NCBI RefSeq assembly: GCF_031884435.1
Contig: NZ_CP134779.1
Span: 5,208,001-5,272,000, forward strand
Direction: 5' to 3'
DNA length: 64,000 nucleotides
Source: Bosea sp. 685
Lineage (GTDB): Bacteria; Pseudomonadota; Alphaproteobacteria; Rhizobiales; Beijerinckiaceae
The translations under genes and the position numbers were made by a program. Under the pieces are notes generated by a model. That model had not been told where the DNA came from. It did not search any database and was given only the letters and a program-made list of their open reading frames with translations. This document shows positions 9,789 to 16,226 of this stretch, piece after piece (position 1 is the first letter of the stretch; each line of letters starts with the position of its first letter).

Positions 9789-9817
9789 TTGCACAGCACC
9801 GCCCACATGGCTAATGA
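9789..9817 (+). promoter_or_regulatory. Candidate promoter for the riboswitch-controlled cobalamin operon
   Basis: A -35-like TTGCAC (9789-9794) is followed after 17 bases by TAATGA (9812-9817), a weak -10-like hexamer. Initiation a few bases further would start the transcript just before the riboswitch at 9829. A small palindrome GTGCATTGCAC overlaps the -35 element. The match to consensus is modest, so this is a suggestion based mainly on spacing. Confidence 0.3.
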
Positions 9818-9828
9818 TCATCCCCGAC

Positions 9829-9981
9829 GGTGCCCCGGCAACGGGGTGAAAAGGGAACGCGGTGCGATACCGCGGCTGCCCCCGCAACTGTAAGCGGTGA
9901 GTTCTGCGCCATCGGCCACTGGGAGCGATCCCGGGAAGGCGGCTCAGGACGTCGAGATCCGTGAGCCAGGAGACCTGCCGT
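9829..9981 (+). promoter_or_regulatory. Cobalamin (B12) riboswitch
   Basis: The conserved landmarks of the AdoCbl riboswitch occur in order: GGTGCCCC and GGGGTGAAAAGGGAA near 9829-9856, GCTGCCCCCGCAACTGTAA at 9875-9893, then GAGCCAGGAGACCTGCC (the B12 box) at 9963-9979. It lies on the plus strand upstream of cbtB, so binding of adenosylcobalamin should lower expression of the cobalt uptake and corrin synthesis genes that follow. Confidence 0.95.
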
Positions 9982-10001
9982 CGTCGTTCCGCAATCCAAC
10001 A

Positions 10002-12485: not shown

Positions 12486-15400
12486 ATGCACCTCCTCCCG
12501 ACCAGCGAGATCAGGCTCGACGACGGCGAAGACGCCGTCGACCTCGCCTTGCCGCCGGGAGATGTGCTGGTGCTGTCCTATGCCGACAGCGATCTCTCGG
12601 CGATTGCCGTGGCTGCCGGCACGGCTGTCGGCATGACTGCCGGAGCGAGCGGGTTCGATGTCCGGCTCGCCTCGCTCAGGCGGCTCAAGCACCCGCTTTC
12701 CGTCGACCTGCTGGTTGCGAAGACGGCGGCACAGAGCCGTTTCGTGCTGGTGCGCTGCCTCGGCGGGCTGGACTATTGGCGCTACGGCGTCGAGCAGCTG
12801 ACCGAGGCTTGCCGGCGCGAAGGCATCGCGCTTGCCGTACTGCCGGGTGACGACCGACCGGATGCGCGATTGGCGGAACACAGCACCGTGCCGGCGGAGT
12901 TCACGGCCGAATTGTTCGGCTATTTCCACGCCGGTGGCGGCGCTGAGAACATGCGGCGGTTGCTGGGGCGGATCGGGGATTATCTCGGCGCCTCCCTTCC
13001 CTCATCCGACCCGGCTGCGCCGGGCCACCTTCTCCCACCCATCTCGGGCTTGCCTGAGATGGGCAATTCTAAGTGCCAAAGTCGGCAACAGCCGACTTTG
13101 ATGGGGGAGAAGGATGAGGCGGCGGCTTCGCCCTTCTCCCCTCCCATCTCGGGCTTGCCCGAGATGGGCAACCCTGAGTGTCAAAGTCGGCAACAGCCGA
13201 CTTTGATGGGGAGAAGGTGCCGGCAGGCGGATGAGGGAAGGCGATATGCTTCCGAGCTCGCACCGCTTCCGCTCCCCTCGCTCTTCGCGCTCGGCGCGGG
13301 TGCAACGCCCGTCCCCTGGCGCGAGGCGCTCGCCGCCCTCCCCACTGACGCTCCGCTCGTCGCCATCCTGGTCTATCGCTCGGGTGTCAGCGCCGGCGAC
13401 ACGGCTATGGCCGAGGCGATCTCCGCGGCTCTCGCCGCCCGCGGCCACGCCCCGCTGATCCTGGCGCTCACCAGCCTGAAGGACCCCACTGTTACGGCGG
13501 AACTCGCGGCGCTGATCGCCCTGCGCAAGCCCGCGCTGATCGCCACCACCACCGCCTTCTCGGCTCGCGAGGGCGGCGATTTCGTGCTCGACGCCGCCGC
13601 TTGCCCGGTGCTGCAGGCCGTACCCGTCGGCAGCGCGCGCGAGGCCTGGAATGCCTCGCCGCGCGGTTTGTCGGCCGTCGATCTCGCAATGCAGGTGGCG
13701 CTGCCCGAATTCGACGGCAGGCTTGGAGCCATCCCCGTCGCGTTCAAGGCGGATGTGACGGATGCCGCGACCGGCCTCGTCATCCGCCGCCTCCTGCCCG
13801 ATCCCGAAGGCATCGCGGCACTGGCCGATCTCGCCGCCGGCTGGATCGCGCTCGCGGCCAAGCCAGTAGCCGAGCGCAAGCTCGCGCTGGTGATGTCGGA
13901 CTATCCCGCGCGCGGTGGCCGGGCCGGCTTCGCGGTCGGGCTCGACACGCCCGCCAGCGTGGCTGCGATCTCGGAGCTGCTGGCGGGAGCCGGGTACGAT
14001 GCCGCTAGCCGTCATGGTGAGGATGGGCCTGAGCTCATGGCAGCGCTCACCACCGGCCCTGCCGATTTCACCGTCTCGCTCCCGGCCTATCGCGCCTGGC
14101 TCGACGGCATCCCCGTTACCGCCCGCGACGCACTTCTCGCCGCCCATGGCGAGCCAGAACCCGACGGCGACGCCTTCCGCTTCCGCACCATCCAGGCCGG
14201 CCATCTCACCATCGCATTGCAGCCGCCGCGCGATGCCACGCCCGACCGCAAGGCGCGCTATCACGATCCCGACGCCCCGCCGGGACATGCCTATCTCGCC
14301 TTCTATCTCGGCTTGCGCGAGACCCTGCGCATCGACGCGCTGATCCATCTCGGCACGCATGGCACCATGGAGTGGCTGCCGGGCAAGGCGGTCGCGCTCT
14401 CGCCCTCCTGCTGGCCGCGCCTGATCACCCAGGGCGTGCCGGTGATCTATCCTTATGTGGTCGATGATCCCGGCGAAGCCGCGCCCGCCAAGCGCCGGTT
14501 GTCGGCGATCACGCTCGGCCATCTGCCGCCTGAACTCGCCGAGACCGGGGCCGGCGGCGAAGTCGCACTGCTGCGCGACCTCGTCGAGGAGTTCTCGCAG
14601 GCGCAAGTGATGGACCCGCGCCGGGCTGAGATCGTCGCCCGCGAGATCCGTGAGCGCGCTGAAGCCAGCGGGCTCAGCGAGAGCTGCGGCGTCACGCCCG
14701 CCATGGAGATGAGCGAGGCGCTGACCCGGCTCGACGCGCAGCTCTGCGATATCGCCGAATTGCCCTTCCGCGACGGGCTGCACATTTTCGGACAAGCCGC
14801 GCACGATCCCGCCTCCTCTGACGCCGAGCGGACAAACCTGCTGCGCGCGCTCGATGGCCGCTTCGTGCCCCCCGGGCCTGCCGGCTCGCCGCATCGCGGC
14901 CGGCCCGATGTGCTGCCGACCGGGCGCAACCTCTCGACGCTGGACCCGCGCGCGATCCCGACACGCGCTGCAGCGAGACTGGGCGGCCTCGCCGCGCAGG
15001 CCGTGATTGCGCGCCATCTGCAGGAGCATGGCGACCATCCGCGCCGGATCGTGATGGATCTCTGGGCCTCGCCGACACTGCGTTCGGGCGGCGAGGATAT
15101 CGCGCATGCGCTCGCCCTGATGGGCGTCGAGCCGCTCTGGGATCACGCCTCGACACGGGTGACGGGGTTTTCGATCATCCCTCAGCCGAAGCTGACGCAT
15201 CCGCGCCTCGACGTGACGATCCGCATCTCCGGCGCCTTCCGCGACACGTTTCCCGGCCAGATCGCCCTGCTCGATGCGGCGGCCCGCGCGATTGCGGCCC
15301 TCGACGAGCCCGACGAGTGGAACGAGCCAGCCGCCGCGCAGCGCCGAGGTGAAGCAGGCGCGCGCATCTTCGGAGCAGCGCCCGGCCGCTATGGCGCGGC

Positions 15401-16226
15401 GATGGCCGACCGCGCCCTCGACGGCGACTGGACGATGCGCGACGAGCTCGCCGAAGCCTATCTCGCCGCCTCCAGCCATGCCTATGGCGGGGCAGAGGGC
15501 GCAGCGACAGCCGATGCGGGGTTCGCGGAACGCATCAGGGAGGCGCAGGCCTTCATCCATGTCAGCGACACGGCCGGGCGCGACATCTTGGAAGCCTCGA
15601 GCGCGGCCGACGTCATCGGCGGGCTTGCGGCGGCGGCCAAATCACTCGGCGCCAATCCCGCGCTCTACAGCCTCGATTCATCCAAACCCGAGGCACCGAA
15701 GGCGCGCACGCTGACTGAGGACATCGCCCGCATCGTCCATGGCCGCTTGACGCATCCGCGCTGGATTGCGGCGCAGCTCGCCCATGGCTGGCGCGGTGCA
15801 GCGGAACTGGCCGAGGCCGTCGATACGCTTTTCGTTTTCGCGGCAAGCACGGATGCCGTCGCGGATGGGCTGTTCGACGCCGTCTTCCAGGCCTATTGCG
15901 CCGATCCGACGATCTGGAGCGCGCTGGAAGCGGCAAATGCTCCCGCCGCCAACGCCATCCGCGCCCGGCTGAGCGATGCCGAGCGGCGCGGCCTGTGGAC
16001 GAGCCGGCGCAATTCGGTCGCGGCCTTTCTGGCGCGGGCGGACGGCACTGTGACGCCGGCCGAGCCAAGCTCCCCCCTTCCCCCTGGTGGGGAAGGGGTG
16101 GGGATGGGGGGCGCTCCGCTTGGTGAGGGATTGACCCAGTCGTTCGCCCCCTACCCCTCCCCACAAGGGGGAGGGGTTCCCGCGCCTAAGATTACGACCA
16201 GCGTTCACTGGAAGGCCGCGGAATGA
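12486..16226 (+). CDS. cobN: Cobaltochelatase large subunit CobN, with two in-frame repeat insertions
   Basis: Large subunit of the ATP-dependent CobNST complex, which inserts cobalt into hydrogenobyrinic acid a,c-diamide. The magnesium-chelatase-H-like core is intact, with the conserved HLGTHGTMEWLPGK at about residues 621-634. Two stretches do not look like CobN. Residues about 171-252 are the translation of a 244-bp palindromic element and contain a duplicated PPISGLPEMGN...CQSRQQPTLMG peptide. Residues about 1195-1233, near the C-terminus, translate a second GC-rich palindromic repeat. Both keep the frame open, and both lie at a linker or the tail, so the enzyme is probably active. cobS and cobT are not in the window. 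The stop overlaps cobG by 4 bases. Confidence 0.94.
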   Translation: MHLLPTSEIRLDDGEDAVDLALPPGDVLVLSYADSDLSAIAVAAGTAVGMTAGASGFDVRLASLRRLKHPLSVDLLVAKTAAQSRFVLVRCLGGLDYWRYGVEQLTEACRREGIALAVLPGDDRPDARLAEHSTVPAEFTAELFGYFHAGGGAENMRRLLGRIGDYLGASLPSSDPAAPGHLLPPISGLPEMGNSKCQSRQQPTLMGEKDEAAASPFSPPISGLPEMGNPECQSRQQPTLMGRRCRQADEGRRYASELAPLPLPSLFALGAGATPVPWREALAALPTDAPLVAILVYRSGVSAGDTAMAEAISAALAARGHAPLILALTSLKDPTVTAELAALIALRKPALIATTTAFSAREGGDFVLDAAACPVLQAVPVGSAREAWNASPRGLSAVDLAMQVALPEFDGRLGAIPVAFKADVTDAATGLVIRRLLPDPEGIAALADLAAGWIALAAKPVAERKLALVMSDYPARGGRAGFAVGLDTPASVAAISELLAGAGYDAASRHGEDGPELMAALTTGPADFTVSLPAYRAWLDGIPVTARDALLAAHGEPEPDGDAFRFRTIQAGHLTIALQPPRDATPDRKARYHDPDAPPGHAYLAFYLGLRETLRIDALIHLGTHGTMEWLPGKAVALSPSCWPRLITQGVPVIYPYVVDDPGEAAPAKRRLSAITLGHLPPELAETGAGGEVALLRDLVEEFSQAQVMDPRRAEIVAREIRERAEASGLSESCGVTPAMEMSEALTRLDAQLCDIAELPFRDGLHIFGQAAHDPASSDAERTNLLRALDGRFVPPGPAGSPHRGRPDVLPTGRNLSTLDPRAIPTRAAARLGGLAAQAVIARHLQEHGDHPRRIVMDLWASPTLRSGGEDIAHALALMGVEPLWDHASTRVTGFSIIPQPKLTHPRLDVTIRISGAFRDTFPGQIALLDAAARAIAALDEPDEWNEPAAAQRRGEAGARIFGAAPGRYGAAMADRALDGDWTMRDELAEAYLAASSHAYGGAEGAATADAGFAERIREAQAFIHVSDTAGRDILEASSAADVIGGLAAAAKSLGANPALYSLDSSKPEAPKARTLTEDIARIVHGRLTHPRWIAAQLAHGWRGAAELAEAVDTLFVFAASTDAVADGLFDAVFQAYCADPTIWSALEAANAPAANAIRARLSDAERRGLWTSRRNSVAAFLARADGTVTPAEPSSPLPPGGEGVGMGGAPLGEGLTQSFAPYPSPQGGGVPAPKITTSVHWKAAE
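12997..13240. repeat. MITE-like composite palindromic element inside cobN (family C)
   Basis: A 244-bp block bounded by perfect 13-bp inverted repeats (CTTCCCTCATCCG, 12997-13009; CGGATGAGGGAAG, 13228-13240). Inside are two direct 86-bp copies (13028-13113 and 13132-13217). Each has outer arms CCTTCTCCC and GGGAGAAGG and two internal hairpins: CCCATCTCGGG...GAGATGGG and AAAGTCGG CAACAG CCGACTTT. The frame runs through the whole block without a stop. Related outer modules lie between genes at 39883-40040. Confidence 0.88.
16071..16182. repeat. GC-rich palindromic repeat inside the 3' end of cobN (family D)
   Basis: Two G/C-run hairpins are translated as a Pro/Gly-rich tail segment of CobN: CCTTCCCC...GGGGAAGG near 16076-16096, and a CCCCTCCCC...GGGGGAGGGG type stem near 16152-16176. 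The same kind of module (CCCCTCTCC...GGAGAGGGG) occurs between genes at 45199-45221 and 45361-45384. Confidence 0.75.

Follow-up and report, generated by a model that had tools for sequence, protein, structure and literature searches.

Rhizobia carry RIME1, mosaic palindromes that lie between genes. Palindromes that lie in frame within genes are also already known, from the accounts of Rickettsia and of intragenic REPs considered here. As described in PMC10969869, each of the Rickettsia palindromic elements (RPEs; Ogata et al.) encodes a conserved peptide. The account in PMC3733652 includes intragenic GTAG and CGTC REPs in open reading frames, many of them in DNA repair genes including uvr, and different REPs at about the same recB site in two Xanthomonas species.

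Here we analysed a palindromic element inside cobN, a vitamin B12 enzyme gene, in the soil bacterium Bosea sp. 685, and compared the gene with its relatives. The stretch of DNA analysed (the window) is 64,000 nucleotides long. We find that the repeat families at the joints of CobN differ between close relatives. The host gene is:

12486..16226, + strand: cobN, cobaltochelatase large subunit (open frame, 1246 amino acids)

Pfam and NCBIfam both identify the 1246-residue product as CobN, and chelatase families are the only ones matched. Its AlphaFold2 model (mean pLDDT 71.5) resembles the solved CobN structures 9fpc and 7c6o. A cobalamin riboswitch (Rfam RF00174, 137 bits) is present at 9811-9996, upstream of the B12 genes.

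A two-layered palindromic element inside cobN

A sequence-only reading of the window had reported a repeat block lying in frame inside cobN. The block is present at 12995-13241, at a place that we call site B, and its frame is open throughout, with no stop codon and no frameshift. The element and its parts are:

12995..13241, + strand: site B compound palindromic element, read in frame as residues about 170-252 (repeat, alignment and fold analyses)
12995..13008, + strand: left terminal inverted repeat, 14 nt (self-comparison)
13228..13241, + strand: right terminal inverted repeat, 14 nt (self-comparison)
13029..13113, + strand: arm 1, closing stem with nested tip module (73-nt core at 13034-13106)
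13133..13217, + strand: arm 2, closing stem with nested tip module (73-nt core at 13139-13211)

The terminal inverted repeats, a MITE feature, match at 100% as had been reported, over 14 nt rather than 13 bp. The same reading described two direct 86-bp palindromic copies. Two direct copies do exist, matching at 92% across 73 nt, and each forms an 85-nt module together with a CTTCTC...GAGAAGG closing stem; however, each copy consists of two hairpins and not of a single 86-bp palindrome. Folded as RNA, 12995-13241 reaches -177.7 kcal/mol, compared with -101.9 +/- 5.3 in shuffled sequences (z -14.2; 0 of 200 shuffles as good), so the palindromic structure is not due to chance.

Dispersed copies reveal how the layers are built. 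The outer layer is an arm of the form CCCTCATCC-hairpin-CCACCTTCTCCC-tip-GGGAGAAGG, and the element in cobN has two outer arms of this widespread CCCTCATCC...CCACCTTCTCCC repeat; the inner layer is the two-hairpin module, nested in the tip of each outer arm. By eye, no target-site duplication is evident in the flanks, where the exact junction is uncertain. A search for Y1_Tnp, the sole transposase family tried, identified two genes, the ends of which differ from those of the site B element.

Four variable joints in CobN

In an alignment of 24 loci from named genomes, partial and distant ones included, both inner modules are found in the closest locus (Bosea sp. OK403). In B. psychrotolerans, only the second of them accompanies the outer element, and the other loci have the outer element alone or nothing. 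A search of 67 genomes of the genus gave matches in 65 (some of them only distant paralogues), and CobN was fetched from 58. Four genomes with contig ends or gaps (G317, G320, G325 and G343) were left out of the first alignment, which gave 54, and four more were then left out owing to a stop codon away from the joints (G329), contig ends (G355 and G360) or a broken frame (G362). The remaining 50 genomes and 95 non-identical proteins from 120 search hits make up a joint set of 145 CobN. Fractions of this set are not prevalences, because the 120 proteins were ranked by similarity to the insert-bearing CobN of the window, which favours filled sites; the 50-genome subset is the better basis for prevalence.

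Variable regions, defined as runs of at least 8 columns filled in less than 60% of the rows of the 145 CobN, are confined to four regions: site A (residues 44-54), site B (residues 175-253), site C (residue 510) and the C terminus (site D). Apart from site B, these are located in the window as follows:

12612..12650, + strand: site A joint, residues 43-54 and the next codon; no repeat in the window, filled in other Bosea species
14010..14025, + strand: site C joint, residues about 509-513, CGTCATGGTGAGGATG, probable remnant of a lost CERSEA-type palindrome (judged from sister sequences)
16075..16186, + strand: site D, a second repeat family with the reading GGEG...GMGG in the C-terminal tail of CobN, with further matches in the same genome

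Sites B and D are filled in the CobN of the window. The site D family is unrelated to the site B element and is also in frame; G316 and P0067 have a similar C-terminal tail at this place.

Site B had been proposed as a place in CobN that tolerates differences in length, with an 80-residue gap in relatives as the check. The stretch between the anchors is 90 residues long in the window and 5-11 in 69 of the 145 CobN, a difference of about 80, and the region is variable in relatives and modelled with a pLDDT of less than 50. The proposal is supported, yet site B is not alone: CobN has three further regions of this kind, and others are found in PhnI and UvrC.

Inserts were labelled by family using hand-made regular expressions on the peptides, some of which may name one DNA family in two readings. 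In the similarity-ranked set of 145, site B carries the CTTCTCCC family in 61 CobN (with inner modules in 5 of these, by peptide motif) and site C carries VIPGxTRDP (37), CERSEA (21), PEEPRSG (20) or GGEG (6), one insert being double-labelled; 19 inserts are labelled at site A, mostly SWSGLSRPS and one of them just 9 residues long, and GGEG is found at site D in 3. The 50 genomes alone have 11, 22, 33 and 2 labelled inserts at sites A, B, C and D. Judged instead by length cut-offs (30, 20, 20 and 30 residues, respectively), which also take in unclassified stretches and remnants, extra sequence is present at the four sites in 18, 71, 94 and 3 of the 145 CobN. By the same cut-offs, 44 of the 50 genomes have extra sequence at one (21 genomes), two (15) or three (8) sites, and 6 have none. 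At least six families of dispersed repeats are represented among the classified inserts, and five of the families are nearly always intergenic in the window's genome. Because relatives have filled the same few loose joints with unrelated repeats, CobN records where extra sequence is tolerated. In G317, one of the gapped genomes left out, site B (locus L168) has a GGEG-like reading that is interrupted by a stretch of unknown bases; a second family may thus occur at this site.

Distribution of the repeats

The window's genome has at least 50 matches to the 244-bp block, at times several per locus (40 of 84 candidates were scored), and 27 matches to the 73-nt copy, including both in cobN. The search of the genome for the repeat unit that the sequence-only reading had called for returned dispersed copies, with 24 of the 27 inner-module loci intergenic, 2 in cobN and 1 in phnI. 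Similarly, 28 of 30 loci of the site B family are intergenic and 2 are in genes (cobN and phnI). The arm pattern occurs 57 times in the window's genome and is present in 75 of 297 genomes of the order, for which the reversed control yielded none among the matches listed. With the second 73-nt copy as the query, 11 of the 297 genomes match, the window's own included (at most 3 candidates scored per genome); inner-module matches outside this genome all score 52.7 bits or less. Further copies are found in the Bosea records OK403 and BK604. Of 53 plasmid records that match an empty arm, 37 are from Rhizobium, and pieces of 32-38 nt match plasmid records of Sinorhizobium and Rhizobium.

We also compared the inserts of the genome set, as DNA, with a sample of the window's genome (464 kb). 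Several places outside cobN match each of the VIPG, SWSG, CTTCTCCC, PEEP and CERS inserts. The LRWG-type insert at site A of G316 has no match in this 464-kb sample, and LRWG-type inserts are therefore not established as dispersed repeats. In 864 kb with 793 called genes, 76 of 79 repeat places are intergenic, 2 overlap a gene end (cobN site D among them) and 1, cobN site B, lies inside a gene; this count takes in the window itself, which was chosen for the finding, and outside the window the within-gene count is 0. In 400 kb of G316, all 22 repeat places are intergenic. Genes for these counts, and for the locus counts of the single families, were called with a hexamer script of our own rather than a published caller. 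The GGEG family is less gene-shy than the others: its 12 matches in the whole of the window's genome comprise 5 intergenic loci, the cobN tail and 6 loci inside two other genes, uvrC and a hydantoinase/oxoprolinase-type gene.

Elsewhere in this genome, a PEEP-family repeat contains a Y1_Tnp (RAYT-like) gene (L295:1167-1950) whose inverted ends are 19 nt long, as if the palindrome had been the target of this gene. A second Y1_Tnp gene with similar ends (L296) is located about 3 kb away.

Turnover between close relatives

With the insert columns excluded from the FastTree tree, parsimony requires a minimum of 16 state changes at site A, 29 at site B, 58 at site C (31 for presence alone) and 2 at site D; recombination would inflate these counts. 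P0030 and P0039, which are 93.6% identical, have different families at site C (VIPG and PEEP, respectively). The left flank of the site is 100% identical between them and the right flank 85.9%, the right flank being the less conserved side in most of the 15 pairs compared. Within the window's clade, site C holds a whole CERSEA palindrome in G347, RHCERNDGEDG in P0004 and RHGEDG in the window. The P0004 sequence is a collapsed, partly deleted remnant. The window's site C is probably what is left of a lost CERSEA-type palindrome, and the three sequences may represent stepwise loss.

The two arms of the site B element compare differently with those of sister genomes. The arm 2 module of the window shares 98-100% identity with its counterparts in three sister genomes, and arm 2 modules are 96-100% alike across the four genomes. 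Arm 1 differs: among the sequences compared, the modules of the window's genome (G000) and of G347 are each nearest to dispersed copies, those nearest to the window's arm 1 being in its own genome and not the arm 1 modules of its sisters. G359 has another kind of module in arm 1 and G302 has none. With arm 2 alike and arm 1 differing among sisters, the arm tips change independently of the outer element. At site B of P0004 there is a 49-residue stretch without the module motif.

Reading frame, constraint and structure

The core of CobN has a Ka/Ks of 0.13 for the window's genome against each of G347, G359 and G302. Constraint on the site B element is looser, with a Ka/Ks of 0.62 (G347, 82 codons), 1.06 (G359, 81 codons, a value that takes in the non-homologous arm 1) and 0.44 (G302, 59 codons). 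All seven tip modules in the CobN of the four genomes have a length of 1 mod 3, and so does the 22-nt arm of G302, which has no module. Elsewhere in the window's genome, 14 copies are divided 5, 6 and 3 among lengths of 0, 1 and 2 mod 3. The frame is not always kept, unless a sequencing error is responsible: in G362 (L170, two contigs), the cobN frame breaks inside a nested SWSG and GGEG element at site A, which is either a real disruption or such an error.

The peptide is less uniform than the DNA. The CTTCTCCC family has a similar reading (HLLPxGEK) in PhnI and most CobN. Among 26 site B inserts of at least 20 residues in the genome set, 21 contain CACCTTCTC; 19 of these share one reading frame for it and the other 2 (G298 and G299) use a second, so that one repeat at one place yields more than one peptide. 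This second frame and the weak constraint make the site B peptide look incidental, with chiefly the frame under protection. In the AlphaFold2 model the joint sites are low-confidence or loop parts of CobN: pLDDT is less than 50 at residues 46-54 and 171-254, and site C lies between helices 489-501 and 514-523. The insert would be translated as part of a stable, working enzyme. The idea of repeat-driven protein evolution, as raised by the sequence-only reading, holds in that the linker sequence has changed; a gained function is not indicated, given the weak constraint, the low pLDDT and the use of more than one reading frame.

Other genes and other genera

For PhnI and UvrC, we used the 30 best-scoring loci each, of 63 and 66 matching genomes, respectively (67 searched). 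Among these loci, each protein has one variable joint with repeat peptides that differ by species. The CGTCATGGTCGGGCTTG-type repeats of PhnI read MVGLDPTISG...ARVKPEHD, in a frame that differs from that of SWSGLSRPS in CobN. In the window's genome, PhnI (L077:716-1999) has about 57 residues beyond its shortest relatives; these are in frame and consist of a tip-type module, which has diverged, and an arm of the CTTCTCCC type (PSSGPSGHLLPRGEK). GGEG-family repeats are in frame in UvrC (L089:998-3079) and in the hydantoinase/oxoprolinase-type gene (L097:989-3037); two pieces of the latter match the family and are probably the two arms of one element.

A further 110 CobN were obtained with a Chelatococcus query and are from Chelatococcus, Microvirga, Salinarimonas, Xanthobacter and others, including at least one Bosea (P0230). 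Site B is filled in none of these 110, which have 6-10 residues there, and 4 have a longer site C. Long inserts at residue 272 (window numbering) are present in 23, all within P0158-P0221 and with Microvirga among the carriers; 17 of the 23 contain SFET or SFDT, which are PEEP-like at the peptide level.

Origin of the inserts

We consider it highly probable that a dispersed, layered palindrome landed in cobN and is read there as an unstructured linker, and that four joints are refilled by repeats filtered for frame. The outer two-arm element would have been inserted first, presumably moved by a mobilising enzyme, and short palindromes would later have been inserted in, lost from or exchanged at the arm tips. 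The resulting linker would sit between the N-terminal domain and the chelatase body, and its peptide would have no function of its own. Selection would filter insertions into cobN, and frame-keeping ones at the four flexible joints would survive, so that unrelated repeat families would accumulate at the same joints. Resident repeats may decay by deletion through their own hairpins and then be replaced. Counting against this explanation, allele exchange between species could mimic repeated insertion, and the tree change counts do not separate the two.

A possible, although not a favoured, alternative is that each joint received a single ancient insertion, that losses and the exchange of cobN alleles among Bosea species came afterwards, and that new insertions have been few. 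All 61 motif-classified site B inserts of the 145 CobN belong to the CTTCTCCC family, which an old insertion with subsequent losses fits better than free landing; the arm 2 modules, 96-100% alike in four genomes, also speak for it, and allele exchange within the genus is plausible. It accords poorly with site C, which holds at least four families at one spot, and with a parsimony requirement of at least 58 changes at site C and 29 at site B, although any recombination would inflate these FastTree-based counts. The family difference between P0030 and P0039 stands beside a left flank that is 100% identical, though the right flank is 85.9% identical, and arm 1 is nearest to dispersed copies in G000 and G347 (among the sequences compared), another module in G359 and without a module in G302.

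More doubtfully, the four joints in CobN and one each in PhnI and UvrC might be standing capture sites in Hyphomicrobiales, where unrelated palindromes are inserted, nested, exchanged at single tips with dispersed copies and deleted. If so, turnover would nearly always be in frame and fast enough that close species differ, the linker would evolve by sampling the repeat pool of the genome instead of through point mutations, and a palindrome already in place may itself attract another.

It is improbable that the inserts have been recruited, either as a spacer of benefit to the chelatase or as an RNA structure with a regulatory role within the cobN mRNA. The very stable fold of the site B element and the recurrence of inserts at the same joints could be taken in this way. 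However, in 6 of the 50 genomes all four CobN sites stay below the length cut-offs for extra sequence, unrelated families stand in for one another, the Ka/Ks of the element is raised, site B shows two reading frames for one repeat, and CGTC-type repeats read SWSGLSRPS in CobN and MVGLDPTISG in PhnI. Removal of the element by splicing, from RNA as an intron or from protein as an intein, is nearly inconceivable, as nothing was seen in its support, both length and frame are preserved, most of the matching repeats elsewhere are intergenic and the Pfam and NCBIfam matches of CobN are to chelatase families only.

For annotation, peptides such as CERSEA, VIPGLTRDP, HLLPRGEK and GLDPTISG, and length differences in these proteins, should be recognized as repeat DNA and not as domains.

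Comparison with known systems

The site B element had been called MITE-like, and it does share terminal inverted repeats, small size, dispersal and the lack of its own transposase with MITEs. A simple MITE is unlikely: the element is a two-arm mosaic with a palindrome nested in each tip, the tips are interchangeable, no target duplication was recognized by eye, and no parent transposase with the same ends was found (Y1_Tnp tried). The arm pattern in 75 of 297 genomes of the order and the matches to Sinorhizobium and Rhizobium plasmids are reminiscent of RIME1, but the site B element lies inside a gene.

CGTC-tagged REPs have a CGTC tag, a stem starting with AT and a CCA tail, as set out in PMC3733652. 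These features are present in another insert, CGTCATGGTCGGGCTTGTCCCGACCATCCA at site A of G324, and SWSG and CERSEA inserts resemble pairs of such REPs; the site B element is not one of them, because its arms begin with CCCTCATCC and have no CGTC tag. In Bosea, by comparison with the recB case in that account, the same-site pattern extends over dozens of genomes and four regions of a single protein, and at least six families take part.

The likeness to Rickettsia that had been suggested is upheld. As in the description of RPEs in PMC10969869, short, dispersed palindromes lie in frame in unrelated genes of an alphaproteobacterium; relatives of the window's CobN with an empty site exist. Unlike RPEs as described there, for which one conserved peptide per family is expected, the CTTCTCCC family has more than one reading frame (19 and 2 of 21 inserts), unrelated families occupy the same joints in different species, and palindromes lie within other palindromes. 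What had been a curiosity of Rickettsia and of intragenic REPs becomes a comparative system, with 50 genomes, several joints, several families and numerous state differences in one enzyme with solved relatives, in which one can ask how often repeats enter genes, how they are filtered for frame, how they exit and whether a palindrome serves as a target. Beyond the known in-frame palindromes, the scale of turnover at the same joints and the nested tip modules that differ between sisters seem to be new.
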